NCBI RefSeq assembly: GCF_013839515.1
Contig: NZ_JACDNQ010000006.1
Location: 62,001 to 126,000 of the forward strand
DNA: 64,000 bases
Reading direction: 5' to 3'
Source of the DNA: Natronomonas salinimetallica
Lineage (GTDB): Archaea > Halobacteriota > Halobacteria > Halobacteriales > Haloarculaceae
This document shows, one piece after another, positions 2,495-52,818 of this stretch. Position 1 is the stretch's first letter; the number at the start of each line of letters is the position of its first letter. The position numbers and the translations under genes were made by a program. The notes below the pieces were generated by a model that had not been told where the DNA came from, ran no database searches, and saw nothing but the letters and a program-made list of their open reading frames with translations.

Positions 2495-3364
2495 GTGACA
2501 CTCCTGTACCACGTCGACGGTGCGTTGGTCGATCGGGCCGACGCGACCGTCCACGTCGACGACCGGGGGTTTCGCTACGGCGACGCGGCCTTCGAGACCT
2601 GTCGGGCCTACGGCGGCGAGGTGTTCCTGTGGGATCGCCACCTCGATCGGCTCGAAGCCACCTGTGCGGTCCTCGGGATGGCCGAGGCCATCCCCGGGGA
2701 CCTCCGTGCGCGCGTCGACGAGACGCTCGAGGCCAACGGCCTCTCGGAGGCCTACGTCCGGGTTTCCGTGACCCGAGGCATCCAGCCCGGAACCCTCACG
2801 CCCGCCGAAGACGTCGACCCGACCGTCGTCGTCTATGTCAAACCGCTCCCGTCGGGTGGGACCGACGGGGATCCGGTCTGGGACGGTCCCGCGACCGTCC
2901 AGTCAGTCGAGACCCGGCGGATCCCCGACGACGCTCTCCCCGCCGGGGCGAAGACGCACAACTATCTCAACGGGATCCTCGCCCGACTCGGGTTGCACGG
3001 GAGCGGTGCGGCCGACGAATCGCTCATGTGTGACACCGACGGATACGTCGCCGAAGGGGCAACGAGCAACGTCTTTTTCGTCGATCGGGGGACGCTGAAA
3101 ACCCCCGAGCGCGGGACGATCCTGCCGGGGATTACCCGTGGGGCCGTCCTCGAGGCGGCCGAGCGAATCGGCGTTCCGGCCGAGGTCGGCCGCTACACCA
3201 TCGACGACGTCCGCGGTTCGACGGAGGCGTTTTTGACGAACACGACATGGGAGATACGACCGATCGGCCGCCTCGACGGGGCCGCGATCGGCGGCGGCCC
3301 CGTGACGGACCGGCTCCGGGAGGCGTACGACGAACTCGTCGACCGGCGCTGTTACGAGACGTGA
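2495..3364 (+). CDS. pabC: Class IV aminotransferase / aminodeoxychorismate lyase
   Basis: This 289-residue PLP enzyme of fold type IV resembles both 4-amino-4-deoxychorismate lyase and branched-chain aminotransferase. Features are the DRGFRYGD segment (about 23-30), the probable Schiff-base lysine in GAKTHNYLNG (Lys153) and the ATSNVFFV motif that grips the PLP phosphate. The start is a GTG one base after the pabA-like stop, and no better ATG lies nearby. Placement third in the operon argues for release of p-aminobenzoate for folate or methanopterin-type cofactors. A branched-chain aminotransferase is the main alternative. Confidence 0.85.
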   Translation: MTLLYHVDGALVDRADATVHVDDRGFRYGDAAFETCRAYGGEVFLWDRHLDRLEATCAVLGMAEAIPGDLRARVDETLEANGLSEAYVRVSVTRGIQPGTLTPAEDVDPTVVVYVKPLPSGGTDGDPVWDGPATVQSVETRRIPDDALPAGAKTHNYLNGILARLGLHGSGAADESLMCDTDGYVAEGATSNVFFVDRGTLKTPERGTILPGITRGAVLEAAERIGVPAEVGRYTIDDVRGSTEAFLTNTTWEIRPIGRLDGAAIGGGPVTDRLREAYDELVDRRCYET

Positions 3365-3457
3365 TAGGGCCGCAGCGCTACTACGGAACTGCTGCGGCCG
3401 GCGGACGGTGCGGCTCGCATCCCGTGGACACTCCTCGGGGGCGTATCGTCGGCGGTA

Positions 3458-3877
3458 TCAGAACTTGTAGTTCGATTTCGATTCGAGATCCGTCCCATCG
3501 CCCTCGATCGCCCCCTCACGGACGAATTCGTAGTCCTCGTCGCTCAGGAACACCGTTCCGTTCTCGACGGCGATCTCGATTTCGTTGAGATACGCCCCCT
3601 CACAGGGGCCGAACGTACAGAAGCCGCTCTCGGACTCGAAGTACGCACCGTGGTTCTCACAGATGAGCTCCTCCCCTCGCATCTCCGCGCCGGACCCCTT
3701 GTCGATCTTGATGTGCGTGTAATGCTGGCAGTAGTTGAGCCACGCGTGGAGTTCGCCGTCGGCCCGGACCAAAATAGCCTCGCGTTCCTCGCCGGACTCC
3801 GTCTCCCGGAGTGTGAACAGATACGTCGTCTCGTCAGGCACATCCTCGATCGGGGCGACAGCACGTCGGGTAGCCAT
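3458..3877 (-). CDS. Rieske [2Fe-2S] domain protein
   Basis: This is a 139-residue small Rieske ferredoxin-like protein. The two cluster-binding boxes are CQH (Cys50, His52) and CENH (Cys73, His76), with the spacing of the Rieske family. There is no signal peptide or membrane anchor, so it is probably a soluble electron carrier rather than a bc1 subunit. The start at 3877 gives MATRRAV; the longer frame upstream would run into the neighbouring regulator gene and lacks haloarchaeal composition. Two further cysteines follow the second box (about residues 85-95). Its redox partner is not evident from the neighbours. Confidence 0.88.
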   Translation of the reverse strand: MATRRAVAPIEDVPDETTYLFTLRETESGEEREAILVRADGELHAWLNYCQHYTHIKIDKGSGAEMRGEELICENHGAYFESESGFCTFGPCEGAYLNEIEIAVENGTVFLSDEDYEFVREGAIEGDGTDLESKSNYKF

Positions 3878-3938
3878 CGTACGGCGGTAGCGGCCGATCG
3901 AACAAACCGCTTGCGGGATTGGAAGGTCACACGGGGGG

Positions 3939-5531
3939 TCACCCGTCCCCGGGGTCGTCCCAGATCGCCGATAACAGGTTCCGCTGTGCGGCGCGGACAT
4001 GCGTCGAGAACGTCGGCTGGGCGATCCCCAGGGAGTCGGCGATTTCCGCGCCGGTCCGCTTTCGGGTCTCGTCGAAGTAGCCGGCGTGATACGCCGTCCG
4101 CAACACGTCCCGCTGTCGTGCCGTGAGCACGCCGGCCAGAAGGGTCGGCCACGGCGTCGCTTCGGTCGGGGCTGCGGCCCGCTCGGCTTTCAGTTCCGCG
4201 TCGCCGAACAGTTCCTGTGCCTGCCCGATGAGACGGTGTTCGTCGCGCTCGCGGCAAATCGAGACGGCGAGTTCGCAGTCGTGCTCGGAGACCCGGAGTG
4301 AGCGGAAACTCGCTCCAAGGGTAGTCACCACCGAGGCGACACACGGTTCCTCCACGAGGACCTCATAGATCGAGGTACCGGTCCCCGGGAGACACTCGAC
4401 CGATCGAATCTCGGGGGCGGTGTCGGCGGCATCGACGACGCGCTCGGGGGTGACATCGGAGAGCAGACAGTAGAGGAGGAACTCGTCCTCCGTTCGCCTG
4501 CTCACGCTCCGGACCTCGACGGTTCTCGACAGCCGGCGGGCAAGCACCCGGAGCGGCTCGTCCTGTTCGATCGCTACCCCGAGGACGAGGTCCCTGCTCC
4601 CGTCGGTATGCAGCGCGTTTCGGCGCTCGAGTGCGGTGACAGCGTAGCCGACGAGCGCTCCGAGTTCTGTCAGGATGTCCCGAATCCGGCCGTCGAAGGT
4701 ATCGACGGTCGTTCCGTAGATTGTCAACACGCCGTGGTGGATACCTTCGTGGTGGATCGGGACCGCGAACACCGACCGGTAGCCCTCCGCCAGCATCGCC
4801 GCCCGCCAGGGTCCCTCGGGAAGCCGCTCCGGAACGCGGTGTTCGCCGGTGGTCGGCCGTTCGTCTGCGACCCGGACGGCCGGAACCGGGGACTCGAAAC
4901 CAAGCGAGAGCGGTATGTCCTCCAGGCGGGAATCGGGGACGTCACACCGCGCGACCGGCACGAGCGCTTCCGCTGAGGGGCCGACGGTGCCGATCCACAC
5001 CCCGCCAAATCCCTCGAGGTCGGCGATCGAACGACAGACCGCCTGGTGGATGCGTTCGCGGGAGCGGACGTCGATCAGTATCTCGTGTAACGACCGGATC
5101 GTCTCGTTCAGCTCGGTGACGTACTCGAGTCGCTTTTTCCGCTCCGTGATATCGACGATGTATCCCATGTAACCGGTGATTTCTCCGTCCTCGCGAACGA
5201 TCCGGGTATGGTCGAGTACCCAGCGGACCTCCCCGCCCTTCGTCACCATCCGGTATGGCTCGTGATGGAACCGCTCGGTCGTCCCGTTACTGTGGTCTTT
5301 GACCTCTTGGGTGACCCGCTCTCGGTCGTCCTCGTGAACCAAATCGATATACGCGGGGTCGCCGTCGCACAACTCGGTCGGCGAGTATCCGAAGAGCCGA
5401 TCGACGTTCGGTGAGACGTACTCGACCGGCCACCCCGACTCGTTGTGCCACGTAAACACGACGACTGGGCCCTCCGCGAATAAATCGAACTCCGTACTCC
5501 CCGACGTGTTCGCATCGATCCGCTCTGTCAT
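3939..5531 (-). CDS. PAS-GAF sensor with bacterio-opsin-activator HTH
   Basis: This 530-residue regulator has an N-terminal PAS domain with PAC segment (about 20-135, including NVDRLFGYSP and the GYIVDITERK end), a GAF domain (about 145-300), the Bat-specific middle region and a C-terminal HTH_10 domain (LTARQRDVLRTAYHAGYF onward, about 470-525). Haloarchaeal Bat-like proteins of this layout are one-component sensors responding to light, oxygen or redox signals; the ligand here is unknown. An A/T-rich TATA element (about 5562-5574) lies about 30 bases upstream. It is transcribed toward the Rieske gene, which may be a target, though this is inference. Confidence 0.92.
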   Translation of the reverse strand: MTERIDANTSGSTEFDLFAEGPVVVFTWHNESGWPVEYVSPNVDRLFGYSPTELCDGDPAYIDLVHEDDRERVTQEVKDHSNGTTERFHHEPYRMVTKGGEVRWVLDHTRIVREDGEITGYMGYIVDITERKKRLEYVTELNETIRSLHEILIDVRSRERIHQAVCRSIADLEGFGGVWIGTVGPSAEALVPVARCDVPDSRLEDIPLSLGFESPVPAVRVADERPTTGEHRVPERLPEGPWRAAMLAEGYRSVFAVPIHHEGIHHGVLTIYGTTVDTFDGRIRDILTELGALVGYAVTALERRNALHTDGSRDLVLGVAIEQDEPLRVLARRLSRTVEVRSVSRRTEDEFLLYCLLSDVTPERVVDAADTAPEIRSVECLPGTGTSIYEVLVEEPCVASVVTTLGASFRSLRVSEHDCELAVSICRERDEHRLIGQAQELFGDAELKAERAAAPTEATPWPTLLAGVLTARQRDVLRTAYHAGYFDETRKRTGAEIADSLGIAQPTFSTHVRAAQRNLLSAIWDDPGDG

Positions 5532-5898
5532 GCATACTCCCCCGTATCCCGGAGTCGGGCCGAATTATTATAAATCCGGGTCTGGAGCCGGCCGTTTCGG
5601 TCCGACCGTCTCGTTTCGCTGCCTCCCAACGATGCTATTATAATAGTGCCTTGATTTTTATACAACCGGATATTACCTCCAGGTGGAGATCCGGTGAACA
5701 GGGGTAGGTTCCTGGTGGCGCTTCGATAGCGTGGGGATGCACCCGGGCTTTCGTTCGGCGGACGGCCCTCTATCGCCGCGGATATTTTTATCGGCACTAG
5801 TGCCGTTCGGACCCTCGGATTTTCTGTAATCGGGGGACCGAACCCGTCGGGCGGAATACGAGGACGAATATAAACCATCGGGACGCATACCCCTCCGC
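5532..5898. promoter_or_regulatory. Divergent intergenic region with palindromes and TATA boxes
   Basis: This gap separates the divergent regulator and ligase-like genes. It is markedly A/T-rich for this genome. It contains a perfect 12-bp palindrome ctattataatag (5635-5646), a perfect 14-bp palindrome cggcactagtgccg (5792-5805), TATA-like elements at about 5562-5574 (for the leftward gene) and 5867-5874 (for the rightward gene), and further TTTTTATA stretches near 5653-5660 and 5784-5790. Short open frames here are arginine-rich and not convincing. An unannotated small RNA or a regulator-binding region is plausible. Confidence 0.5.
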
Positions 5899-6730: not shown

Positions 6731-7357
6731 ATGAGCCGCGCCGCGTACGACCGGTGGGTCTTCGACCTCGACGGGACGCTGGTCGACGTCGAACCCGACT
6801 ACGTCCACGAGGTGATGGGCCGGATCGGTGACCGACTGGGCTATGGTTTCACCGATCGACAGGCCGAGACCCTCTGGCACGGCTTCGGTGGGGAACGGGG
6901 CGATCACCTCCGCGCGTGGGGAATCGATCCCGAACGGTTCTGGACGGTCTTCCACGACGAGGAGGACGCGGCCGCGCGTGCCGGGGCCACCTTCTTATAC
7001 GATGACGCCGCCGTCGTCGGCGAACTCGACGCGCCGACCGTACTCGTCACCCACTGTCAGCGATACCTGACGGATCCGGTGTTGGCGTCGTTGGACATCG
7101 GCGATTGGTTCGATTCGATCGTCTGCTGTAGCGCCGAAACGGGCTGGAAACCCGACCCCGAACCGGTCCGGACGGCGCTGTCGGCGGCAGGAGCCGAGTC
7201 TGGCCGTGGGGTCCTCGTTGGCGACACGCCGGGGGACGTCGGTGCGGCGTGGAACGCGGGCCTCGAGGCCGCCCACGTCGAGCGCCACGGCCACGGACGC
7301 CGGGGGTGTTGTGTCGTCGGCGACCACCGAGTTGGCCGGATCGACGAGTTGGCCTAG
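6731..7357 (+). CDS. HAD-superfamily hydrolase
   Basis: This 208-residue phosphatase-like protein opens with the HAD motif I, FDLDGTLVD (nucleophile Asp12, general acid Asp14), followed by an alpha-helical cap. Motif II (VLVTH), a lysine in ETGWKPDPEP and motif IV (VLVGDTPGDV) are all in order, so it should be catalytically competent. It resembles phosphoglycolate-phosphatase-like haloarchaeal HADs, but the substrate cannot be inferred. The start MSRAAYD at 6731 was chosen because coding character begins there. Its stop overlaps by four bases the stop of the convergent small gene. Confidence 0.88.
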   Translation: MSRAAYDRWVFDLDGTLVDVEPDYVHEVMGRIGDRLGYGFTDRQAETLWHGFGGERGDHLRAWGIDPERFWTVFHDEEDAAARAGATFLYDDAAVVGELDAPTVLVTHCQRYLTDPVLASLDIGDWFDSIVCCSAETGWKPDPEPVRTALSAAGAESGRGVLVGDTPGDVGAAWNAGLEAAHVERHGHGRRGCCVVGDHRVGRIDELA

Positions 7358-7672: not shown

Positions 7673-7688
7673 TTTAGGTATGCCTAAA
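7673..7688. promoter_or_regulatory. Palindromic operator, TTTAGGT-type, site 1
   Basis: The sequence TTTAGGTATGCCTAAA matches the window-wide consensus TTTAGGTNNRCCTAAA. It lies in the divergent gap, about 100 bp from the start of the small acidic gene and 79 bp upstream of site 2. It may act as a distal or cooperative site, or control an unannotated transcript. Confidence 0.7.
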
Positions 7689-7766: not shown

Positions 7767-7782
7767 TTTAGGTTCACCTAAA
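7767..7782 (+). promoter_or_regulatory. Palindromic operator, TTTAGGT-type, site 2
   Basis: The sequence TTTAGGTTCACCTAAA is a perfect 16-bp dyad ending 11 bases before the ATG of the GT75-like gene. For a leaderless transcript it overlaps the TATA position (TTTTTTA, 7764-7770), which fits a repressor operator. Confidence 0.8.
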
Positions 7783-7793
7783 ACAGTGTAGCA

Positions 7794-9056
7794 ATGGACG
7801 AGTATACCGACCGATCCGGGACGACGAGCGGCTCTGGAGGTACGGACAAGCCACAGAGCGCGGACAAAGACTGCGATATCTGCGTCATCGTCCCCACAAT
7901 CCGGGAATACGACTGCGTTCGCGCGTACATCGAGAACGCCCGAGCGCACGACTTTGACACCGATCGACTACACTTCGTCCTCGTCACCGAGGACTTCTGT
8001 GATACCGACGAGATGCGAGCGATGCTCGATGATCTCGGCGTCGACGGTGCGGTCTTCGACGGAAGCGACCGCGAGGAGTGGTACGAGCGTCACGGGATCA
8101 CCGAGTACGCACACCTCGTACCGGCGGCGAGTCACGCCGAAACGAGCTTCGGACTCCTCTACATGTGGGCCAACGATACGTTCGAGTACGGCGTCTTCAT
8201 CGACGACGACACGCTCCCACACAATGGGGACTTTTTCGGTCGACACATGCGGAATCTCGCCTTTGGGGGAGACATCGAGCGAGTTCGTTCGGACGAACAG
8301 TGGGTCAACGTGCTGTATCAACGGGCCGACGAACACGGTCTCTATCCGCGAGGCTACCCCTACTCGGCGATGGACGAAACCGTCGAGACGGATACTGTCG
8401 AAGTCGGATCCGGCGAAATAGTCGCCTCGCAGGGGCTGTGGACAAACGTCCCGGATCTCGATGCCGTCCGGATCCTGATGGACGGTGACCTGGAGGGGCA
8501 GGCCCAAACCCGGACGACGCTCGAGGATTTCGATCGGGACTTCGTCGCCGCGGACGGAAACTATCTCACGGTCTGTTCGATGAATCTCGCGTTCCGGCGG
8601 GAAATCATTCCCGCGTTCTATCAGCTCCCGATGGACGACAACGAGTGGGACGTCGGGCGCTTCGACGACATCTGGAGCGGCGTCTTCCTCAAGCGGGCCT
8701 GCGATTTCCTCGGCGCGCGGATCTACAACGGCCGGCCGCTGTGTGAACACAACAAGGCCCCGCGGTCGACGTTCGACGACCTCCACAACGAGGTCGCGGG
8801 CTTGGAGCTCAACGAACACCTCTGGGAGCTCGTCGACGAGGTCGAACCGGGACCGCTGCGCTCCAGCGACGCGGCCGACGGCTACGCGGCGGTCTTCGAG
8901 GCGATGGCACGGCGACTCGCCGAGGGCGAGTTCGACGAGTACCGCAACGGCGCGTTCCTCACTCACGTCGGCGAGCACATGCTCGGGTGGCTCGAGTGTC
9001 TCGACGAACTCGGAGCGGCCGGGGCGGTCGAAACGCCCGTCGCGGCGGACGACTGA
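7794..9056 (+). CDS. GT75 / reversibly glycosylated polypeptide-like protein
   Basis: This 420-residue protein resembles the RGP / UDP-arabinopyranose mutase family (GT75). It has a nucleotide-sugar-binding start (CVIVPTIREYD, about 29-40), an acidic metal/nucleotide motif FIDDDTLP (137-139 DDD), the family signature YPRGYPYS (Arg186; the equivalent arginine is reported as the self-glycosylation site in plant enzymes), SQGLWTNVPDLDA, a CSMNLAFRREI segment and GRFDDIWSGV. The family interconverts pyranose and furanose forms of UDP-sugars; the exact substrate here is unknown. The gene sits directly behind operator site 2 and upstream of an Fe(III)-binding lipoprotein gene. No signal peptide is seen, so it is cytosolic. 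Confidence 0.8.
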   Translation: MDEYTDRSGTTSGSGGTDKPQSADKDCDICVIVPTIREYDCVRAYIENARAHDFDTDRLHFVLVTEDFCDTDEMRAMLDDLGVDGAVFDGSDREEWYERHGITEYAHLVPAASHAETSFGLLYMWANDTFEYGVFIDDDTLPHNGDFFGRHMRNLAFGGDIERVRSDEQWVNVLYQRADEHGLYPRGYPYSAMDETVETDTVEVGSGEIVASQGLWTNVPDLDAVRILMDGDLEGQAQTRTTLEDFDRDFVAADGNYLTVCSMNLAFRREIIPAFYQLPMDDNEWDVGRFDDIWSGVFLKRACDFLGARIYNGRPLCEHNKAPRSTFDDLHNEVAGLELNEHLWELVDEVEPGPLRSSDAADGYAAVFEAMARRLAEGEFDEYRNGAFLTHVGEHMLGWLECLDELGAAGAVETPVAADD

Positions 9057-9075: not shown

Positions 9076-9091
9076 TTTAGGTGGACCTAAA
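9076..9091 (+). promoter_or_regulatory. Palindromic operator, TTTAGGT-type, site 3
   Basis: The sequence TTTAGGTGGACCTAAA lies between the TATA box and the ATG, four bases before the start codon. It would cover the transcription start of a leaderless mRNA. Confidence 0.82.
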
Positions 9092-9095
9092 AACC

Positions 9096-10238
9096 ATGAC
9101 TGACGAACGAATCCACGGACGAACGACAGACCGCCGGCGCTTTCTCGCGGCCGCGGGCGCGGCCGGGGCGGCCGGACTCGCCGGCTGTTCGGGGATGCTC
9201 GGCGGGAACGGATCGGACGACGGCACCGATGGCTCGGACTCGCCGGTCGGCCAGATCGGATCGGGGCGGGAGGGCCGCGATGCTCCCGGTGGGACCCCGA
9301 TGAGCGAGATGCCGGATCTACAGGGCGAACTCACAGTCTACTCGGGCCGCGGTGAGTTCCTCGTCGGCGAGCTCGTCGGCTTCATCGACGATCAATACGA
9401 GGACTTCGAGTTGACCGTCCGGTACGGCGGGTCGACCGATCTCGTCAACCAGATCGTCAACGAGGGCGACGGCTCGCCCGCCGACGTGTTCTACTCGGTG
9501 AACGCCGGGTCCCTCGGGGCGTTGGCCGACGAGGGACGAGCGGGATCGATCGACGAGTCGGTCCTCGAGATGGTCCGCTCGGAGTTCCGTACCGACGCCT
9601 GGATGGGGACGTCCGGCCGGGCGCGGACGATCCCGTACAACACCGACGCGTACGCGGCCGACGACATGCCGAACGATATCATGGCCTATCCCGAGGCGTT
9701 CGACGGCGATCTCGGATGGGCACCCTCCTACGGCTCCTGTCAGGCGTTCGTCACCGCCATGCGGCTCATCGAGGGCGAGGAAGCGACCCGCGAGTGGCTC
9801 AACGCCGTCATTGAGAGCGGTATCACCGACTATCCGGACGAGTTCGCCGCCTGTGAGGCGGTCGCCGACGGCGAGATCGACGCCGCGTTCACGAATCACT
9901 ACTACGTCCAGCGCGTACTCGACGGGAACCCGGAGGCCTCGATCGCGACCGCCTTCACGCAGGGTGACGCCGGTGCCGTCTTCAACGTCGCCGGCGCGGC
10001 GGTCGTCGATACGGCCGACGACGAGTCCCTCGCGAGCAACTTCATCCGACACCTGCTGTCGGCGGAGGCACAAAACTACTTCGCTACGTCGACGTTCGAG
10101 TACCCGCTCGTCCCGGACGTCGACCCGGTCGGCGACCTCCCCTCGATCGACGAACTCGACGTTCCCGATATCGATCTCGCGCGGCTCTCCGAACTCGAGC
10201 CGACGGTCGATCTCATGCGTGACGTCGGCGCGCTCTGA
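9096..10238 (+). CDS. Tat-exported Fe(III)-type ABC substrate-binding lipoprotein
   Basis: This 380-residue extracellular solute-binding protein resembles FbpA/FutA/IdiA ferric-binding proteins. It has a twin-arginine signal (RRRF at 13-16, Ala/Gly-rich core) ending in a lipobox AGLAGC (Cys31), followed by an acidic Gly/Ser/Asp linker. The mature domain begins GELTVYSGRGEF and contains a paired-tyrosine segment NHYYVQR like the iron-ligand tyrosines of ferric-binding proteins. The start at 9096 was preferred over an in-frame GTG at 9081 because that GTG lies inside the operator. It is probably co-transcribed with the GT-C gene 15 bases downstream. No permease or ATPase adjoins it; a matching permease lies at 47.8-49.4 kb. 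Confidence 0.88.
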   Translation: MTDERIHGRTTDRRRFLAAAGAAGAAGLAGCSGMLGGNGSDDGTDGSDSPVGQIGSGREGRDAPGGTPMSEMPDLQGELTVYSGRGEFLVGELVGFIDDQYEDFELTVRYGGSTDLVNQIVNEGDGSPADVFYSVNAGSLGALADEGRAGSIDESVLEMVRSEFRTDAWMGTSGRARTIPYNTDAYAADDMPNDIMAYPEAFDGDLGWAPSYGSCQAFVTAMRLIEGEEATREWLNAVIESGITDYPDEFAACEAVADGEIDAAFTNHYYVQRVLDGNPEASIATAFTQGDAGAVFNVAGAAVVDTADDESLASNFIRHLLSAEAQNYFATSTFEYPLVPDVDPVGDLPSIDELDVPDIDLARLSELEPTVDLMRDVGAL

Positions 10239-10253
10239 ACGGTTCCCACCGAC

Positions 10254-12416
10254 GTGACATCTCCTCGAGACCGGCTCCGACGGCGGGTATCGAAGGCCGT
10301 CAGTGAAGCGTTTCGCCGCCTCGACGCCCCACGGGTGGCGGCCATCGCGACCGCCGCCGGGGCCGCTATCGCGGTCTTCGTCGTCTCCAGTACGGTCTTT
10401 GCGTACCACTCGAGCAACCACGACGAGGGGGTATATCTGCTCCAGGCGGCGCTGCTTCTCGACGGTCAACTCGAACTCCGGGCCGGGGAGTTGGCCGGCG
10501 CGTTCCGGCCGTGGTTCTTCGTCGAGGACGGGGGGCGGCTCTACCCGAAATACACCCCCGTTCCGGCGGCGATGTTCGCGGCCTCGATGGCGCTTTTCGG
10601 CGAGCCGCGGATGACGCTCGCCGCCGTCGCCGCGGCGAACGCCGCGCTCGTGTACGTGTTGGGGTCGATGCTCTTCGATCGCCGGGTCGGCGTCGTCGCG
10701 GCGGCGCTGTTCGCCGCGTCGCCGCTCGCGGTCGTGACGACGTCCGCGTTCCTCCCCTATGCGCCGACGACGGCGCTGAATCTGTTGTTCGCCGTCGCGT
10801 ATCTGCGGGGCGTCCGGGACGGCTCGATCCCCGCCGCCGCGGTCGCCGGGATCGCGATCGGGGTCGCCTTCTTCGCCCGCCCCTACACGGCGGTGCTGTT
10901 CGCGATCCCGTTTATGTGTCACGCGCTCGTTTCGGTCGTCAACTCGGTGTCGGACGGCGGTATTTCGACCGCCGAACCGGTCCGTAGACAGGGCGTGACG
11001 GCGGTGTTTGGCCTCGCGTTCGTCGGCGTGACGCTCGCGTACAACGCCCGGATGACCGGTTCGCCACTCGTGTTCCCCTACGAGGCGTTCGCCCCCGCGG
11101 ACGGTCCCGGGTTCGGCACCCGGCGGATCCTCGACCACTCGGTCACGTACACCCCCGCGTTGGCGCTGGAGGCCAACGGGTACGCCATCCGGTATCTCCT
11201 CACGCGGTGGTTCGTCGCGGGACCGATCGGGACGGCGGCCGCGGTCGCGGGCCTCGCGCTCGCCGTCCGCCGATGGATCGGTGAGCGGACTGCCGCCGAC
11301 GGTTCGGCGGCCTTCGAGCGACGGGCGGGCCTCGTGCTCGCCGGGCTCTTCGTGACCGTTACGGCCGGCAACGTCGCCTTCTGGGGCAACTACAACGTCC
11401 TCGCGACGCTGTCGGATCCGACCGACGGCCTCGTCTCGCAGTTCGGCCCGTTCTATCACTTCGACCTGCTGGTTCCCCTTTCGGTGTTCGCAGCCCTCGC
11501 CGTCGTCGTCGGCTGGGACCGGGGGGTTCCGGCCGTCCGGTCGGTGATCGAACGCCGCCGCTCCCGGCGGGCCGCGCGGGTCGCGGTCGCGCTCCTCCTC
11601 GTTGCGAGCCTCGTCGGCGCGTCGGCCGCCGCGGTCGCGGCCGTCTCGGGTCCGCTCGACCGGAACGCGGCTCACACGGAGAAATACGAGGTCGCCTACG
11701 GGCCGATCGAGACGGCCGACCCCGAAAGCGCGGTGGTATTTTTGCCGACGCCGTACGGCGACTGGCAGAACCACCCGTTCCAGTATCTCCGCAACGACGG
11801 CGGGCTGGACGGCCCCGTCGTCTACGCGCTCGATCGCGGCCCGGGTGACGACTTCGCGGTCCTCGATGCCTACCCGAACCGGACGCACTACCGGTATGCC
11901 TATCGGGGCGAGTGGACGCCGAGTGCGGATCGACACGTCACCCCGAAGCTCGAGCCGCTGGACGTCCGTCGCGGCGCGACGCTCGATGGAGAGGCCGTCG
12001 TCGGCGTCCCGTCCCGCGTCGCCCACGCCAGGGTCCGACTCGAAAGCGAGACGGGCGGTACCGCCGAGTACGCGGTGGCCGATCCCGACGGCTCGATCAC
12101 CGTGCCGTGGTCGATCGATCGCGACGCCGCGCGGTTGTTGGCGGCCGACTCAGCGCCGTCGGTTCGGGTGGGTGGGGCCGACACCGTCGTCCTGACGGTC
12201 ACGCTCACACAGCCCGACGGCGGAACGCTCACGTACCGCCAGGAAGCGACCGTCAGAACCGGCATCGACGGCGTCGAGGTAGTCTGGCCGCCGGAGCGCT
12301 CCGTCTGTCCGCTCGTCACCGACTGCGGTAACGAGGGGACGTACCTCCCCGACGATTCGGACGCCCACCGGGCGGGCGTCTCCTTCGAGACGCGTCTGGA
12401 GCCGCGAGAGCCGTGA
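10254..12416 (+). CDS. GT-C membrane glycosyltransferase (GT39/PMT-like)
   Basis: This 720-residue polytopic protein has one N-terminal helix, an external-loop acidic motif NHDEG (55-59) typical of dolichol-phosphate-sugar-dependent GT-C transferases (PMT/ArnT type), then about ten more membrane helices to about residue 445. A C-terminal soluble domain of about 270 residues (beta-rich, ending with VCPLVTDCGNEG) faces the outside. It probably transfers a lipid-linked sugar to surface proteins or glycans. The start is GTG at 10254, 15 bases after the lipoprotein stop, so it is under operator site 3. The substrate is unknown; fusion to the C-terminal domain is not one I recognise. Confidence 0.8.
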   Translation: MTSPRDRLRRRVSKAVSEAFRRLDAPRVAAIATAAGAAIAVFVVSSTVFAYHSSNHDEGVYLLQAALLLDGQLELRAGELAGAFRPWFFVEDGGRLYPKYTPVPAAMFAASMALFGEPRMTLAAVAAANAALVYVLGSMLFDRRVGVVAAALFAASPLAVVTTSAFLPYAPTTALNLLFAVAYLRGVRDGSIPAAAVAGIAIGVAFFARPYTAVLFAIPFMCHALVSVVNSVSDGGISTAEPVRRQGVTAVFGLAFVGVTLAYNARMTGSPLVFPYEAFAPADGPGFGTRRILDHSVTYTPALALEANGYAIRYLLTRWFVAGPIGTAAAVAGLALAVRRWIGERTAADGSAAFERRAGLVLAGLFVTVTAGNVAFWGNYNVLATLSDPTDGLVSQFGPFYHFDLLVPLSVFAALAVVVGWDRGVPAVRSVIERRRSRRAARVAVALLLVASLVGASAAAVAAVSGPLDRNAAHTEKYEVAYGPIETADPESAVVFLPTPYGDWQNHPFQYLRNDGGLDGPVVYALDRGPGDDFAVLDAYPNRTHYRYAYRGEWTPSADRHVTPKLEPLDVRRGATLDGEAVVGVPSRVAHARVRLESETGGTAEYAVADPDGSITVPWSIDRDAARLLAADSAPSVRVGGADTVVLTVTLTQPDGGTLTYRQEATVRTGIDGVEVVWPPERSVCPLVTDCGNEGTYLPDDSDAHRAGVSFETRLEPREP

Positions 12417-47003: not shown

Positions 47004-47753
47004 TCACTCCGTCGTCGCGCTCGTCACGTCGTCGGCCTCGTATCCCTCCTGAAGCCGCCGTTCGGCCTCCTCGCGGTCCTCGGGATACCCCACGTCGATC
47101 CGCCAGCCCTCGAGCCCGATCGCGTCGATGGTGCGACCCGACTGGATCAACAGGTCGATCGCATCGGAGATCTCGTACTCGCCGCGGTCGGAGGGCTGGA
47201 CCAGATGACAGGCGTGAAAAATCGCGGGCGAAAACGTATAAAAACCGGTCATCACCAGGTTCGACGGCGGGTCGTCGGGCTTTTCGACGACGTCCGTTAT
47301 CTCGCCGTACTTGTTGGTGTCACAGACCCCATAGCGGGAAGCCTCCTCCCAGGGCACCTCCTCGACCAGAAAGGCGGCGTCGGCGCGCGCCTCCCGCTGA
47401 CGGTTGACGACGTCGGCGAGGTTCGCCTCGAAGACGTTGTCCCCGAGCATCAACATGAAATCGTCGTCGATATGCTCTTCGACGCACAACAGCGCGTGGG
47501 CGAGCCCACGCTGCTCGCGCTGGTGAGTGTAGGTGATCGGAACGCCCTCGTAGGCGTCACCGTAGTGGTCGATGATCCGCTCTTTTTTGTACCCGACGAC
47601 GACGAGCAGTTCCTCGGCGTCCAGTTCGATGAGTCGGTCGAAGCAGTGACTCAGGATGGGTTGGCCATCGACGTCGACGAGTGCCTTCGGTTTGTCCTCG
47701 GTCAGCGGGCGGAGACGGGTTCCCTCTCCCGCGGCGAGTACGACTGCGCGCAT
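47004..47753 (-). CDS. aglF: Glucose-1-phosphate nucleotidyltransferase (AglF-like)
   Basis: This 249-residue enzyme makes a UDP- or dTDP-sugar. It has the nucleotidyltransferase signature VVLAAGEGTRLRPLTEDKPK (about 4-23), a metal motif LMLGDNVF, VEKPDDPPSN and GWRIDVGYPED. It closely resembles AglF of Haloferax volcanii, a UTP-dependent glucose-1-phosphate uridylyltransferase for S-layer N-glycosylation, from memory. The start at 47753 (MRAVVLAAGEG) fits the family. It lies downstream of the Fe permease on the same strand. Confidence 0.88.
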   Translation of the reverse strand: MRAVVLAAGEGTRLRPLTEDKPKALVDVDGQPILSHCFDRLIELDAEELLVVVGYKKERIIDHYGDAYEGVPITYTHQREQRGLAHALLCVEEHIDDDFMLMLGDNVFEANLADVVNRQREARADAAFLVEEVPWEEASRYGVCDTNKYGEITDVVEKPDDPPSNLVMTGFYTFSPAIFHACHLVQPSDRGEYEISDAIDLLIQSGRTIDAIGLEGWRIDVGYPEDREEAERRLQEGYEADDVTSATTE

Positions 47754-47805: not shown

Positions 47806-49410
47806 TCACAGCCCGCTGCCCTCGCCCTCCTGAGAGAGCATCACGACCATCGAAAGGCCCGAAATGAGGATCAAAATGAGCGCGGGCACCGCGGCGTACT
47901 GATAGAGCGCGGACTCTTGGGCCCGCCAGATCTGGGTGACGATCGTCTCGAAGCCGGACGGTCGGAGGATGAGCGTCACCGGCAGCTCCTTCATCGTCGT
48001 CAAGAAGACGAGCGCGGCCCCCGCGACGAGCCCAGAGCGGATGTGTGGCAGCGTGATTCGCCGGAACGCGCCGATCGGAGACTCCCCGAGGGTCCGGCCG
48101 GCCTCGACGAGTTTCGAGTCGACCTGTAGGATCGAGGTCCGGGTCGTCCCGACCGCCTGCGGCACGAAGCGAACGACGTACGCGAAGATCAAAAGCGGCA
48201 GCGTCTGATAGAGCCAGGGGACGTAGCCCGAGCCGAAAAAGACCAACGCGAGCCCCAACACGACGCCCGGGACGGCGAAGCCGACGTACGTCGCCCGCTC
48301 GAACAGCGTCGCCAGCCGTGAGTCGCTCGTCCCGGCGAGATACGCTACCGGGAGCGCGACCAGCGTGGCGACGGCGGCGGCGGCGGCGGCGACGGTCACG
48401 GAGTTAACCGCCTGCGTCCACTCGAACGCCATCGACGGCCGTCGGCTCACGTCCGTTCGCCACAGCCACAACAGCAGGATCCAGACCGGGACGGCGAGCG
48501 TCGTCGCGGTGACGCCGGCGGGGAGCAGCGTCGCGGGCCAGCGCCACCGTCCCAGCCGGACCTGGCTTCCGACGCGGTCGGCGTCGTCGCCGCGGACGGT
48601 CTGGTCGGGGCGGATCGCCCATTCGAGGGTCAACACGACGAGAACGAGCAACAGGAGCTGAATCGAGAGCAACGCGGCGTACTCGCGGCCGAAGGTGTTG
48701 TACTCGACGTAGATCTGTCTGGTGAACACCGACAGGCGCATGATCGCCGGTGTGCCGAAGTCCGAGATCGCATATAGCGCAGTCAAGAGCCCGCCGGCGG
48801 CGATCGCGGGCCGGATCTGCGGCAGCGTCACCCGGCGGAAGGCACCCCAGGAGCCGTAGTTGAGCGTCCGGGCGGCGTCGATCAACCGCGTGTCGAAGGA
48901 GACGAGAGCGGCCCGGGTCGTCAGGTAGACGTAGGGGTACGTATAGAGGGTAATGACGAATATCGACCCGGGGAGCCCGTAGATCTCCGGCAGGCGTCCG
49001 ACACCGAGCGGGGCCAAAAGCGAGTGGAACTCCCCTTGGGGGCCGAACGCGGAGACGAACGCGAACGCGCCGACGTAACTCGGTACGACGAGGGGGAGCG
49101 CAACCGCGATCGACCAAAAGCGCCGGAACGGGAGGTCGGTCCGGACGGTCAGATACGCCAGCGGAACCCCGAGGAGGATCGAACAGAGGGTCACGCCGAT
49201 CATCAACAGAAGGCTGTTGAGGAGGACGTCCGCGGTCCCGGCGCTGAAGACGAGTTCACGGGCGCGGACGGGATCCACGGTCACGACTTCGAGCAGCAGC
49301 CACGCCAGTGGGAGAATCAACGCCACCGCGATCGCGCCACAGAGCGCCGTCAGTCCGGGCGACAGTGGGAGGTTCACCGATCGTTCGGCGGGATCGTTCT
49401 CTCGTTCCAT
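47806..49410 (-). CDS. Fe(III)-type ABC transporter permease (two-domain)
   Basis: This 534-residue permease is a fused pair of six-helix domains, as in FbpB/FutB. The EAA-type loops are AARTLNYGSWGAFRRVTLPQIRPA (first half) and EAGRTLGESPIGAFRRITLPHIRSG (second half), and the LYAISDFGTPAIM segment is typical of Fe(III) permeases. Its ATPase is not adjacent. It is divergent from the subunit-3 gene, sharing a 96-bp gap with the operator at 49485-49500. The cognate binding protein is probably that at 9.1 kb. Confidence 0.88.
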   Translation of the reverse strand: MERENDPAERSVNLPLSPGLTALCGAIAVALILPLAWLLLEVVTVDPVRARELVFSAGTADVLLNSLLLMIGVTLCSILLGVPLAYLTVRTDLPFRRFWSIAVALPLVVPSYVGAFAFVSAFGPQGEFHSLLAPLGVGRLPEIYGLPGSIFVITLYTYPYVYLTTRAALVSFDTRLIDAARTLNYGSWGAFRRVTLPQIRPAIAAGGLLTALYAISDFGTPAIMRLSVFTRQIYVEYNTFGREYAALLSIQLLLLVLVVLTLEWAIRPDQTVRGDDADRVGSQVRLGRWRWPATLLPAGVTATTLAVPVWILLLWLWRTDVSRRPSMAFEWTQAVNSVTVAAAAAAVATLVALPVAYLAGTSDSRLATLFERATYVGFAVPGVVLGLALVFFGSGYVPWLYQTLPLLIFAYVVRFVPQAVGTTRTSILQVDSKLVEAGRTLGESPIGAFRRITLPHIRSGLVAGAALVFLTTMKELPVTLILRPSGFETIVTQIWRAQESALYQYAAVPALILILISGLSMVVMLSQEGEGSGL

Positions 49411-49473
49411 GGCGTGTTGGTATCGTCTGGCGGGACGTCCCTCTCGCCCTTATGTCGATCGAATCGGACCAAC

Positions 49474-49500
49474 GGATATAAGACTTTAGGTTTGCCTAAA
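49474..49500 (+). promoter_or_regulatory. Promoter and palindromic operator, TTTAGGT-type, site 4
   Basis: A TATA box (ggatataag, 49474-49482) is followed by TTTAGGTTTGCCTAAA (49485-49500), ending six bases before the ATG of the subunit-3 gene. The divergent permease starts 75 bases to the left and could be controlled by the same site. Confidence 0.8.
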
Positions 49501-49506
49501 ACGTAT

Positions 49507-50055
49507 ATGGAACTGACGAGGCGGGACGCGGCGGCCGCCCTGGCGGCGGTCGGGGCCGGCGGAGCGGTCGCGTTCGGGGTCGACCGGCTTCGGGGGGATG
49601 GTTCGGACGGCCCGGACGCCTCCGGGCAGGATCCGCCGGCCGAGGCGCGGCTCCGGGAGACGTTCGTCGCGGCCGCGGAAGTCCTCTATCCGAGCGAGGT
49701 ATCGGGGATCGGGGGCTTCGTCGAGGGGTTTCTCGAGGGACGGCTCGGACGCCGCGACCACGCCGACGGGATCCGGGCCGCGGTCGGAGCCCTCGACGAC
49801 CGGGCCGTCTCGTGGTACGGCGAACGCTTCGCCGCGCTCGCCGTCGAGGACCGCGACCGGCTCCTCCGGGAGATCGGGGCCGATACCGCCGAGGAGGACC
49901 CCGAGGGAACGACCGCCGAACGGGTCCGATACTACGTGGTCAACGAGCTCCTGCTCGCGTTGTACGCCTCCCCGACCGGCGGCGAACTCGTCGGCCTCGA
50001 AAACCCCCAGGGCCACCCCGGCGGGACCGAGAGCTACCGGCGGGGGCCGAAATGA
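49507..50055 (+). CDS. Gluconate 2-dehydrogenase subunit 3-like protein
   Basis: This 182-residue protein resembles the small subunit of membrane sugar-acid dehydrogenases. Its N-terminus (LTRRDAAAALAAVGAGGAVAFG, about 3-24) is a Tat-type signal or anchor with a twin-arginine. The helical body (about 45-165) and conserved GHPGGTESY end match the family. It overlaps the GMC gene by four bases; such small subunits carry their flavoprotein partner through the Tat pathway. It lies directly behind operator site 4. Confidence 0.85.
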   Translation: MELTRRDAAAALAAVGAGGAVAFGVDRLRGDGSDGPDASGQDPPAEARLRETFVAAAEVLYPSEVSGIGGFVEGFLEGRLGRRDHADGIRAAVGALDDRAVSWYGERFAALAVEDRDRLLREIGADTAEEDPEGTTAERVRYYVVNELLLALYASPTGGELVGLENPQGHPGGTESYRRGPK

Positions 50056-51650
50056 GCGGTTCGGCCCCGAACGGCCGGAGACCGGTATCGGGGGCGGACG
50101 TCTGTGTCGTCGGCGCGGGGCCGGCCGGTGCGCTCGTCGCCGACCGCCTCGCGGCCGAGCACGAGGTCGTCGTCTTGGACGCCGGCCCCCGGTTCGATCC
50201 GGCCGACCGCCTCGAACGCCAAGAGCGGGCGATCCGGCCCGCCTACGACCGCCCGGACGTGTGGGACGGCGACGACGAACGCGACGCCCACTCGGCCTCC
50301 GGCGACCGGTTTTATCCCCTGAACCACGCCCGTGTAAAGGGGATCGGCGGCTCGACGCTACACTGGCAGGGGATGGTGATGCGGCTCCACGAGGACGACT
50401 TCGCCTCGGGGAGCGAACGCGGGGTCGGCCCCGACTGGCCGATCGACTACGGGGAGGTACGGCCCTACTACGCCGCCGCCGAGCGCGAACTCGGGGTCGC
50501 CGGATCGGACGACAACCCCTACGCACCGCCGCGCGAGGAGCCGTACCCGATGCCCGCGTTCGCACCCTCCTACAGCGACGGCCTCTTCGCCGACGCCTGC
50601 GAGGCGCTCGAAATCGACATGCACTCGGTACCGAACGCCCGGAACTCCGAGCGCTACGACGGCCGGTCGGCCTGTGTCGGCTACGGGACCTGCCAGCCGG
50701 TCTGTCCCGCGGGGGCGAAATACGACGCCACCGTCCATATCGAGCGGGCCGAATCGAAGGGCGCAACGGTGATCGACCGCGCGCCGGTCCAGCGGCTCGA
50801 ACACGGTGTAGACCGGGTTCGTGCGGCCGTCTACGCGACCCCCGACGGCACCGAGTACAGACAGACGGCCGAGGCCTTCGTCGTCGCCTGCGGTGGCGTC
50901 GAGACGCCGCGGCTGTTGTTGCTCTCGGACTCCGAACACTACCCCGACGGGCTTGCGAACGAAAGCGGCCTCGTCGGCAGGTACTTCATGGATCACCTCT
51001 TCGCCGGCACCGGCGGCGTCCTCGAGGAGCCCACGCGACAGAACCACGTCGGCTTTCTCACGAGCGAGAGCCACCAGTTCTACGACGACGCCGACGGAGA
51101 GATCGGGCCGTTCAAGCTCGAATTTTTCAATTACGGCGGCCCCTCGCCGGTCGAGACGGCGCTGTCGGCCGACACCTGGGGTGAGGACCTGCTGGATCGG
51201 CTCAGACAGGACTACGGGACCCACGTCGGCATGGGTGCGCTCGTCGAGCAACTGCCCCGCGAGGACAGCTACGTCGGCCTCGATCCCGACCGGACCGACG
51301 ACCACGGCAACCCCGTGCCCGACGTCCACTGGACCGTCGGCGACCGGGCTCTGCGAACGATCGAGCGGGCCAACGAGGTCCAGGAGGCGATCCTCTCGGA
51401 ACTCGGCGCGGAGATCACCTGGCAGGTCGGCCCCGACGATACCGGCCCGGCGTATCACCACATGGGAACCACCCGGATGGGTACCGACCCCGAGGAGAGC
51501 GTCGTCGATCCCCGTCTCCGAACCCACGACCTCGGGAACTGCTGGCTCGTCACCAGCGGCGCGTTCCCGACCGGCGGCGCGGTGAACCCGACGCTTACGA
51601 TCGCCGCGCTCGCGCTGCGGGCGGCCAAGGACGTCCGAACGTCGCTTTGA
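50052..51650 (+). CDS. GMC-family FAD oxidoreductase
   Basis: This 532-residue flavoprotein has an N-terminal FAD motif VCVVGAGPAGALVADRL (about 18-34), a GMC substrate-domain region and the C-terminal HHMGTTRMG motif with the catalytic His region. A cysteine cluster (CVGYGTCQPVCPAGAK, about 215-230) is also present. It resembles the large subunit of gluconate or sugar dehydrogenases that feed electrons to a c-type cytochrome. It has no signal peptide of its own and is probably exported with the subunit-3 partner. The substrate is unknown. Confidence 0.9.
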   Translation: MSGSAPNGRRPVSGADVCVVGAGPAGALVADRLAAEHEVVVLDAGPRFDPADRLERQERAIRPAYDRPDVWDGDDERDAHSASGDRFYPLNHARVKGIGGSTLHWQGMVMRLHEDDFASGSERGVGPDWPIDYGEVRPYYAAAERELGVAGSDDNPYAPPREEPYPMPAFAPSYSDGLFADACEALEIDMHSVPNARNSERYDGRSACVGYGTCQPVCPAGAKYDATVHIERAESKGATVIDRAPVQRLEHGVDRVRAAVYATPDGTEYRQTAEAFVVACGGVETPRLLLLSDSEHYPDGLANESGLVGRYFMDHLFAGTGGVLEEPTRQNHVGFLTSESHQFYDDADGEIGPFKLEFFNYGGPSPVETALSADTWGEDLLDRLRQDYGTHVGMGALVEQLPREDSYVGLDPDRTDDHGNPVPDVHWTVGDRALRTIERANEVQEAILSELGAEITWQVGPDDTGPAYHHMGTTRMGTDPEESVVDPRLRTHDLGNCWLVTSGAFPTGGAVNPTLTIAALALRAAKDVRTSL

Positions 51651-51657
51651 GCCGTCT

Positions 51658-51673
51658 TTTAGGTCAACCTAAA
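51658..51673 (+). promoter_or_regulatory. Palindromic operator, TTTAGGT-type, site 5
   Basis: The sequence TTTAGGTCAACCTAAA lies eight bases after the GMC stop and 32 bases before the ATG of the GT2 gene, next to a TATA-like aacttaa (about 51674-51680). It overlaps the expected transcription factor B recognition region. Confidence 0.8.
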
Positions 51674-51705
51674 AACTTAAGCACCCACGGGAGAGAAACG
51701 TGGTA

Positions 51706-52467
51706 ATGAGTTCGATACAGCCGCCGACGAACGGGATCGAGGCCGAAACGGCCGACTCGACTGGGGTCGATTCGGCCAGTGACGCGAGCGAGTACACCTT
51801 CGAGGACGTCAGCGTCGTGATGGGGACCTACAACGAGGCGGCGGCGATCGGAACGGTCCTCGACGACATCGAGGCCATCACCGACGGGAAGGCCGAGGTC
51901 GTCTGTGTCGACGGCTCCTCGGATCGGACCCCCGAGATCGCCCGCGAGCACGGTGCCCGCGTCATCGAACAGGCTCCGCAGGGCTACGGGGTCGCGGTCC
52001 GGGAGGCGATCCTCGCCCCCGACCGGCCCGTCGTCGTCACTACCGACTGCGACGACACCTACCCGATGGAACAGCTGCCGGAGTTCCTCGAAGCCATCAA
52101 CGCCGGCCACGACGTCGTCAGCGGCGATCGGCTCTATCACGGGGCCGAGGCGATGCCGGCGTTCAACCGGCTCGGGAACCACCTCTTCGCGCTGTTGGCG
52201 AGCGCCCTGATGGGCGAGCGCGTCCACGACACCACGACCGGAATGCGCGCCTACCGCCGGGAGGTCGTCGAATCGATCGAGTGGACCGAGAACACCGGGC
52301 TTTCGGCGGAGCTTCTGATCCGGCCGCTGATGCGCGGCTACGACGTCCGTGAGCATCCGATCGCCTACCGCGAGCGCGCCGGCGAGACGAAACTCGATCC
52401 CATCGAGGGCGGCCTCGCGATTGCGAAGTCGATCGTGAAAGTCTCCCTCGAGGAACGCCTTCCGTAG
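51706..52467 (+). CDS. GT2 glycosyltransferase, dolichol-phosphate sugar synthase type
   Basis: This 253-residue GT-A enzyme resembles dolichol-phosphate mannose/glucose synthases. Seen are the N-terminal VVMGTYNEAAAIGTVLDDI (about 37-55), VDGSSDRTPEIA (about 67-78), the DCDDTYP metal motif (about 108-114) and the HDTTTGMRAYRR segment. There is no transmembrane tail, so it is a soluble or peripheral donor-forming enzyme. Haloarchaeal AglJ- or AglD-like enzymes have similar parts. It may supply dolichol-P-sugar to the GT-C enzyme at 10.3 kb, which shares the operator class. The ATG at 51706 was chosen after the in-frame GTG at 51700. Confidence 0.85.
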   Translation: MSSIQPPTNGIEAETADSTGVDSASDASEYTFEDVSVVMGTYNEAAAIGTVLDDIEAITDGKAEVVCVDGSSDRTPEIAREHGARVIEQAPQGYGVAVREAILAPDRPVVVTTDCDDTYPMEQLPEFLEAINAGHDVVSGDRLYHGAEAMPAFNRLGNHLFALLASALMGERVHDTTTGMRAYRREVVESIEWTENTGLSAELLIRPLMRGYDVREHPIAYRERAGETKLDPIEGGLAIAKSIVKVSLEERLP

Positions 52468-52737: not shown

Positions 52738-52818
52738 CGCCGGGACGGGGATTTGAACCCCGGATCCCTGAGGGAACACGCTTTCCAGGCGTGCGCCTTA
52801 CCACTCGGCCATCCCGGC
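52738..52818 (-). tRNA. tRNA-Ser (anticodon GGA)
   Basis: An 81-base serine tRNA can be folded: acceptor GCCGGGA / TCCCGGC with discriminator G, D arm GCC/GGC, anticodon arm CACGC-CTGGAAA-GCGTG with anticodon GGA, a long variable arm TTCCCTCAGGGATC as required for serine, and T arm CGGGG-TTCAAAT-CCCCG. The CCA tail is not encoded. It lies immediately beside MITE-like elements, a common insertion neighbourhood. Confidence 0.97.

Follow-up and report, generated by a model that had tools for sequence, protein, structure and literature searches.

A 64-kb window of Natronomonas salinimetallica DNA (contig NZ_JACDNQ010000006.1, positions 62,001 to 126,000) was found to contain, in two separated blocks, genes for a ferric-iron substrate-binding protein (SBP) and an ATP-binding cassette (ABC) permease, for three predicted glycan-building enzymes (the GT75-family protein RGP, the glycosyltransferase GT2 and the membrane glycosyltransferase GT-C), and for a GMC-family flavodehydrogenase with its small partner g3, which carries a twin-arginine translocation (Tat) signal. 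Taken together, these genes may form one haloarchaeal iron-starvation module, in which a ferric ABC importer would be accompanied by a co-inherited glycan-building and glycan-oxidising arm; this reading, which draws on genome comparison, was given a probability of approximately 0.45. The usual description of a ferric ABC importer comprises a binding protein, a permease and an ATPase, and in 115 of 145 sampled genomes the importer travels with glycosylation enzymes and a putatively exported relative of iron-sulfur sugar dehydrogenases. Should the arm contribute to iron capture, it would represent a novel route of iron acquisition and would assign a role to surface glycosylation genes that are so far uncharacterised. 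The parts are of known kinds and their combination is apparently new: it was not found in the literature searched, and some of these genes may already be listed in the 2015 study of the FerR regulon.

The glycan genes and the GMC gene appear to form a strict unit, with the importer as a constant neighbour. Among the 145 genomes of the class, RGP, the DUF7846 GT-C protein and a GT2 protein over the NF041391 cut-off were each present in 115, and the three sets of genomes were identical. The GMC dehydrogenase was found at an E value of 1e-100 in 116 genomes, namely the same 115 and one other (G200, 54% identity). RGP, GT2 and GT-C were present in 115 of the 116 GMC-bearing genomes compared to 0 of the 29 others, and the shared phyletic profile had a Fisher p value of 1e-29, uncorrected for relatedness. 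GT2 relatives below the cut-off occurred in all 145 genomes. In Haloferax volcanii, the family models for RGP, GT-C and GT2 all scored over cut-off.

Gene order was compared within 18 kb in 40 of the 115 RGP-bearing genomes, hand-picked for spread. The rgp, sbp and gtc genes lay on one strand in 40 of the 40 RGP neighbourhoods, which also held the permease (39), the ATPase (35), gt2 (30), g3 (20) and GMC (15). The commonest order was rgp-sbp-perm-atp-gtc with gt2 convergent; in five loci (L199, L200, L202, L203 and L204) g3 was located behind gtc and GMC lay outside the stretch. In Halomarina halobia (L054), rgp, an operator site, sbp, permease, ATPase, GT-C, a second site, g3 and GMC follow one another in a single row. 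A preliminary description of this DNA, which dealt with the permease, g3/GMC and GT2 genes, had suggested that the dehydrogenase was coupled either to ferric reduction or to glycan chemistry. The coupling to glycan chemistry is strongly supported by the co-inheritance of GMC with the GT75, GT-C and GT2 proteins and by the position of RGP and GT-C on one strand with the ferric SBP. The possibility that the neighbours, and the operator palindromes described below, reflect chance or inherited linkage is highly improbable: related genomes do share ancestry and the profiles carry no tree correction, but control patterns yielded 0 sites, and identical profiles were seen with both states, module present and module absent, inside six genera (g1, g26, g30, g36, g46 and g68).

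In the congeners G029 and G009, the counterparts of the window blocks at approximately 7.8-12.4 kb and 47-52.5 kb adjoin, within 0.4 and 2.5 kb of one another, and are inverted relative to each other. Judged by gene order, the permease/g3/GMC/GT2 cluster is half of a larger unit that includes the 7.8-12.4 kb block (Table 1). The earlier reading of the cluster is upheld in part; the membership of the 7.8-12.4 kb block in this unit had been missed. A single inversion behind the split was considered as a candidate only and was not adopted; it rests on the relative inversion in the two congeners. A tRNA-Ser (gga) gene at 52738-52818 of the window borders the displaced GT2 block at its end and marks a possible rearrangement point, and no tRNA genes were found in the relatives' five stretches. 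The aglF gene beside the permease has no operator of its own and adjoins the permease in G029 as well.

The putative operator is the exact 16-bp palindrome TTTAGG-N4-CCTAAA, found in 10 copies in the 2.78-Mb host genome compared to 0 for the reversed control; five of the ten lie in the window (sites 1 to 5, Table 1). In 80 named loci (1.34 Mb), which are the best 80 of at least 582 confirmed GMC-homologue stretches in named genomes and lean to near relatives, the exact 14-mer occurred in 186 copies, and eight control patterns gave 0. The palindrome was also present in 17 of 18 extended iuc siderophore regions, with L184 as the exception, and in 10 of 30 short IucA loci, and it was found at 0 of 30 ZnuA loci. 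Its presence at iuc regions together with its absence from ZnuA loci indicates an iron-type, DtxR-like operator, a prediction that is well supported by comparison across genomes. On the ZnuA result, the reading of the palindrome as a Zn/Mn operator was rejected. A ferR signal before haloarchaeal iron-uptake genes has been described for the FerR regulon (Leyn and Rodionov 2015, as reported in PMC11349517). The host genome encodes three clear DtxR-family proteins (Table 1), and two further ones are borderline over cut-off. Degenerate operators were rejected as candidates: one mismatch on the 14-mer gave 19 matches in the genome, fewer than the control (29), and weight was for this reason given to exact sites only. 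In the window, up to two mismatches gave 6 matches compared to 4.69 expected, and five of these six were the exact sites. A bacterial promoter scan was uninformative, the host being an archaeon.

Among the named loci, the exact 14-mer was located before g3 in 63 of 69, mostly 7-13 bp from the projected start, before gt2 in 36 of 38, before rgp in 34 of 35 and before sbp in 28 of 36, and 25 of 42 permease genes had a site within 150 bp. No site at all was found in L055 and L066. For nine GMC genes, a site was found a short distance upstream and no g3 was detected in the interval (L042, L044, L057, L064, L070, L072, L074, L075 and L077); by eye, these nine GMC proteins show no signal of their own. 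In the hand-picked genomes, a site was found near rgp in 36 of 40, near sbp in 29 of 40 and near the permease in 4 of 39. Of the 63 g3 promoters with a site, 35 have a TATA sequence that begins 5-9 bp before it, compared to 4 of 63 in a control stretch; with the TATA placed just before the site, a bound repressor would be expected to cover the transcription start at g3.

The window itself agrees with two statements of the preliminary description, according to which the permease and the g3/GMC operon diverge from a single 96-bp gap with site 4 and the GT2 gene has its own site 5: coordinates, genes and exact palindromes all match. The GMC reading frame starts 4 bp before the end of g3. Site 4 lies 6 bp from the start of g3 and 74 bp from the ATG of the permease. 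By its promoter layout, site 4 belongs to the g3 promoter, and control of the permease by the same site is plausible.

Table 1. Features of the two window blocks (coordinates are positions in the 64-kb window) and clear DtxR-family proteins of the host genome
Feature	Position	Strand	Remarks
Operator site 1	7673..7688	.	exact palindrome, 94 bp upstream of site 2
Operator site 2, before RGP	7767..7782	.	exact palindrome
RGP, GT75 NDP-pyranose mutase-like protein	7794..9056	+	PF03214, 1.2e-16
Operator site 3, before SBP	9076..9091	.	exact palindrome
FbpA-type ferric-iron SBP	9096..10238	+	twin-arginine and lipobox-like N-terminus; 7w3w and 3wae matches
GT-C membrane glycosyltransferase	10254..12416	+	PMT_2, DUF7846
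AglF, UTP-glucose-1-phosphate uridylyltransferase	47004..47753	-	NF041313, 443.8 bits compared to cut-off of 400
Two-domain iron-type ABC permease (FbpB/SfuB-like)	47806..49410	-	two BPD_transp_1 stretches
Intergenic gap, permease/g3	49411-49506		96 bp
Operator site 4	49485..49500	.	TTTAGGTTTGCCTAAA; between TATA-like box and ATG of g3
g3, gluconate 2-dehydrogenase subunit 3 family	49507..50055	+	Tat signal MELTRRD; PF13618, 1.9e-8
GMC flavodehydrogenase	50052..51650	+	3Fe-4S cysteines C208, C214, C218; PF05199, PF00732
Operator site 5, before GT2	51658..51673	.	TTTAGGTCAACCTAAA
GT2 dolichyl-phosphate hexose transferase	51706..52467	+	NF041391, 8.6e-124, 410.5 bits compared to cut-off of 375
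DtxR-family protein L114			DNA-binding, metal-binding and FeoA domains
DtxR-family protein L115			both DtxR domains
DtxR-family protein L116			N-terminal domain only

By family assignment, the SBP and the permease, with the ATPase of most sampled relatives, would constitute an FbpABC-type ferric importer. The SBP matched structures of the ferric-binding family (7w3w, 1.4e-56; 3wae, 2.4e-44), the second of which is the Thermus FbpA. Among homologous loci with more than 40% identity (those below were discarded without a count), the NxYY motif of the SBP was kept in 76 of 76 and a second Tyr motif in 67 of the same 76. In most of the relatives sampled, a homologue of the permease comes after the FbpA-type SBP. 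The likeness to the FbpABC/HitABC importers (3WAE, 7W3W) extends over the SBP family, the NxYY motif, the two-domain permease and the ATPase seen in 35 of the 40 sampled relatives. The haloarchaeal locus differs in that its strand also bears RGP and GT-C and in that the window holds no close ATPase, but one 33%-identical ABC protein at 59.9 kb.

Among solved enzymes, the GMC protein is most similar to the alpha subunit of the Burkholderia flavin adenine dinucleotide (FAD)-dependent glucose dehydrogenase (6a2u_B, 3.7e-82) and to fructose dehydrogenase (7w2j, 1.5e-76). The ligands of the 3Fe-4S cluster in the Burkholderia enzyme are Cys212, Cys218 and Cys222, and Cys213 forms a disulfide with the gamma subunit (PMC6719666). 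Cys208, Cys214 and Cys218 of the window protein align with the three ligands, and Val209 occupies the position of Cys213. The C-x5-C-x3-C pattern was visible in 80 of 80 GMC relatives, in 76 by a longer pattern and in four from printed stretches, and HHxGT and G-A/T-x-NPT were present in 74 and 76 of the 80, respectively. An RR pair is present close to the N-terminus of the partner g3 in 84 of 88 homologues, some of which have a lipobox-like GC after it; the window g3 itself contains no Cys. Neither a search of its profile against PDB sequences nor a Foldseek search with its model (E value of 0.001 or better) found a match. When the model (pLDDT of 81.9) was aligned to 786 chains with VIA-align, the top chain was 6a2u_A, the gamma subunit of the Burkholderia cepacia enzyme, with a Z score of 5.7, which is below the caution line of 8, and an rmsd of 5.5 over 99 residues; the next chain had a Z score of 3.7. 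On the strength of this model, g3 is likely a hitchhiker-like gamma subunit. The preliminary description had spoken of a Tat-anchored dehydrogenase. A Tat signal is indeed present in the operon, but it sits on g3 and the GMC protein is without it, and export of GMC would have to be by hitchhiking on g3.

In the haloarchaeal pair, the GMC protein is accompanied by a Tat-signal protein whose model comes closest to the gamma subunit of the Burkholderia cepacia gamma-alpha enzyme (6A2U), and the pair shares with this enzyme and the fructose dehydrogenase large subunit (7W2J) full-length GMC similarity and the three 3Fe-4S cysteines. In contrast to the Burkholderia enzyme, it lacks the alpha-gamma disulfide cysteines, and in contrast to both systems the haloarchaeal GMC has an iron-type operator and a tie to glycan genes. 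A CxxCH motif, as expected of an adjacent multihaem cytochrome c subunit, was absent from the 14 window genes checked, the rest of the genome and the relatives being left unsearched; by this motif, g3-GMC is classed as a relative of the direct-electron-transfer-type FAD dehydrogenases and not as a member of the trimeric kind.

Two alternative roles for the dehydrogenase were weighed against these data. Uptake might be eased if the exported GMC oxidised a sugar or polyol and its 3Fe-4S cluster handed the electrons on to ferric iron or to a carrier. This sugar-driven ferric reduction is consistent with the full retention of the cluster ligands, with the operator type that g3/GMC shares with the ferric SBP gene and with the lack of CxxCH in the genes checked. 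However, FbpA-type SBPs are generally known to take ferric iron, so that reduction would be unneeded, and the co-inheritance with RGP, GT2 and GT-C is left unaccounted for; this explanation is rather unlikely. Less likely still is the production by GMC of a soluble sugar acid or keto-sugar, a gluconate-like ferric chelator independent of the glycan arm. Glucose and fructose dehydrogenases are the closest relatives of GMC with a known structure, and iron-limited Pseudomonas putida secretes gluconate amounting to 44% of its glucose uptake (PMC4767421). However, iron minerals were dissolved better by siderophore than by gluconate in the same work (PMC4767421), and a soluble product does not account for co-inheritance with three glycosylation genes.

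RGP matched the MtdL structures at 1.5e-24, and its residues DDD137-139, R186, D221, R289 and D292 correspond to the DDD motif, Arg159, Asp195, Arg257 and Asp260 of this GT75 mutase (PMC9937993). Three RGP motifs were kept in 76 of 76 homologous loci. RGP belongs by sequence to the GT75 family with the catalytic Arg and Asp kept, and may have pyranose-furanose mutase activity. It differs from MtdL in having His114 and Met263 and in lying in an archaeal iron-controlled locus. The GT-C protein (PMT_2, 2e-8) is predicted to have a GT-C membrane fold: its AF2 model (pLDDT of 88.4) matched AglB (3waj, 2.3e-7), ArnT (5f15, 6.1e-6), and also ALG9 and AftA/Emb, with low TM-scores to the query of approximately 0.4.

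A dolichol-phosphate (Dol-P)-sugar synthase and a GT-C transferase, together with a flippase-like LPG_synthase_TM protein in some haloarchaeal relatives, resemble the AglD/AglR/AglS Dol-P-mannose branch of Haloferax N-glycosylation; the haloarchaeal module differs from this branch in its iron-type operators, ferric importer and GMC. The same resemblance would fit a simple switch of the surface glycan upon iron starvation, in which the arm would add a sugar to S-layer or other glycoproteins and oxidise it without contributing directly to uptake. This is unlikely, as in most of the genomes sampled GT-C comes after SBP, permease and ATPase on a single strand. In iron-starved Haloferax, the UPF0104 protein HVO_1859 and the GalE-family protein HVO_0655 were up 11.6-fold and 12.7-fold, respectively (PMC11349517); these could not be linked to the module. 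The LPG_synthase_TM gene was rejected as a core member, being beside rgp in only 5 of the 40 sampled genomes, and the homologue in this genome (48%) is in a 4-kb locus without a site. Site 1 has no clear gene of its own and may be a relic, since some relatives have an LPG_synthase_TM gene, equipped with a separate site, upstream of rgp.

For the module of importer and glycan arm, the following sequence of events is proposed. When iron is scarce, the repressor would leave the operators. RGP would then supply a furanosyl (or otherwise rearranged) NDP-sugar; GT2 would place a sugar on dolichol phosphate, and GT-C would transfer this sugar at the outer face. The Tat-exported 3Fe-4S GMC-g3 pair would oxidise the exported sugar, or one closely linked to it, and the oxidised glycan would help to retain ferric iron at the surface for capture by the SBP; these last two steps are the least certain. 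In its full form, as a glycan siderophore, a dolichol-derived surface sugar would be oxidised outside by the 3Fe-4S GMC into a ferric ligand that feeds the FbpABC importer, all within one co-inherited, iron-repressed module. This specific proposal is unlikely.

Several findings weigh against the module. The SBP family was detected in 141 of the 145 genomes at an E value of 1e-30, and the importer is for this reason not strictly tied to the glycan arm; its best match was 1.4e-94 or better in the 115 module-bearing genomes, and in the other 30 it was equally strong in two (G150 and G157), weaker in 24 and missing in 4. The iuc genes showed no association with the module (30 of 115 genomes with it, 8 of 30 without it, p of 1.0), and iron need, as gauged by iuc, was rejected as a predictor of the module. 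In the RGP protein, H114 and M263 replace the sugar-site residues Asp87 and Gln229 of MtdL (PMC9937993), and the sugar may consequently be a different one, or the mutase step may be lacking. Nowhere in its main text does the paper on the proteome of iron-starved Haloferax (PMC11349517) use the words "GMC" or "oxidoreductase". As for the operators, g3 was without a site in 6 of 69 named loci (L019, L048, L056, L066, L073 and L081), and among the hand-picked genomes only 9 of 20 had a site near g3 and only 6 of 30 had one near gt2. For GT2, direct control by the operator would accordingly characterise the nearer relatives. The linked control put forward in the preliminary description is retained, as iron-type control of importer, dehydrogenase and Dol-P glycosyltransferase, for this genome and its nearer relatives, where the exact sites and the iuc regions speak for it, but does not extend to GT2 in the wider sample.

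The five exact palindromes outside the window were distributed over three loci of this genome, with one at a membrane protein gene (L001), three in L002 and one at an HTH_10 regulator gene (L003). In L002, two copies (5597 and 5634) are just upstream of a gene at 3140-5593 (contig C12, about 236.1-238.6 kb) for an exported-looking DUF5059 protein with a C-terminal plastocyanin-like, cupredoxin domain, possibly an EfeO-like iron protein. In L003 (at approximately 5681), the site precedes the ATG of the regulator gene by approximately 44 bp, and the divergent upstream gene encodes, by eye, a small protein with a CGCGG motif. The L001 site (at approximately 5360) is directly before the membrane protein gene, whose product is CopD-like by eye with no Pfam match; the gene adjoins a DUF2249-like tandem gene, also recognised by eye. 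The third copy in L002 (region 6754-6930) lies approximately 64 bp before a divergent small membrane open reading frame, recognised by eye, and precedes a gene for an undecaprenyl/polyprenyl diphosphate synthase by approximately 160 bp; a link of this polyprenol synthase to the dolichol-phosphate arm, if true, would be of interest.

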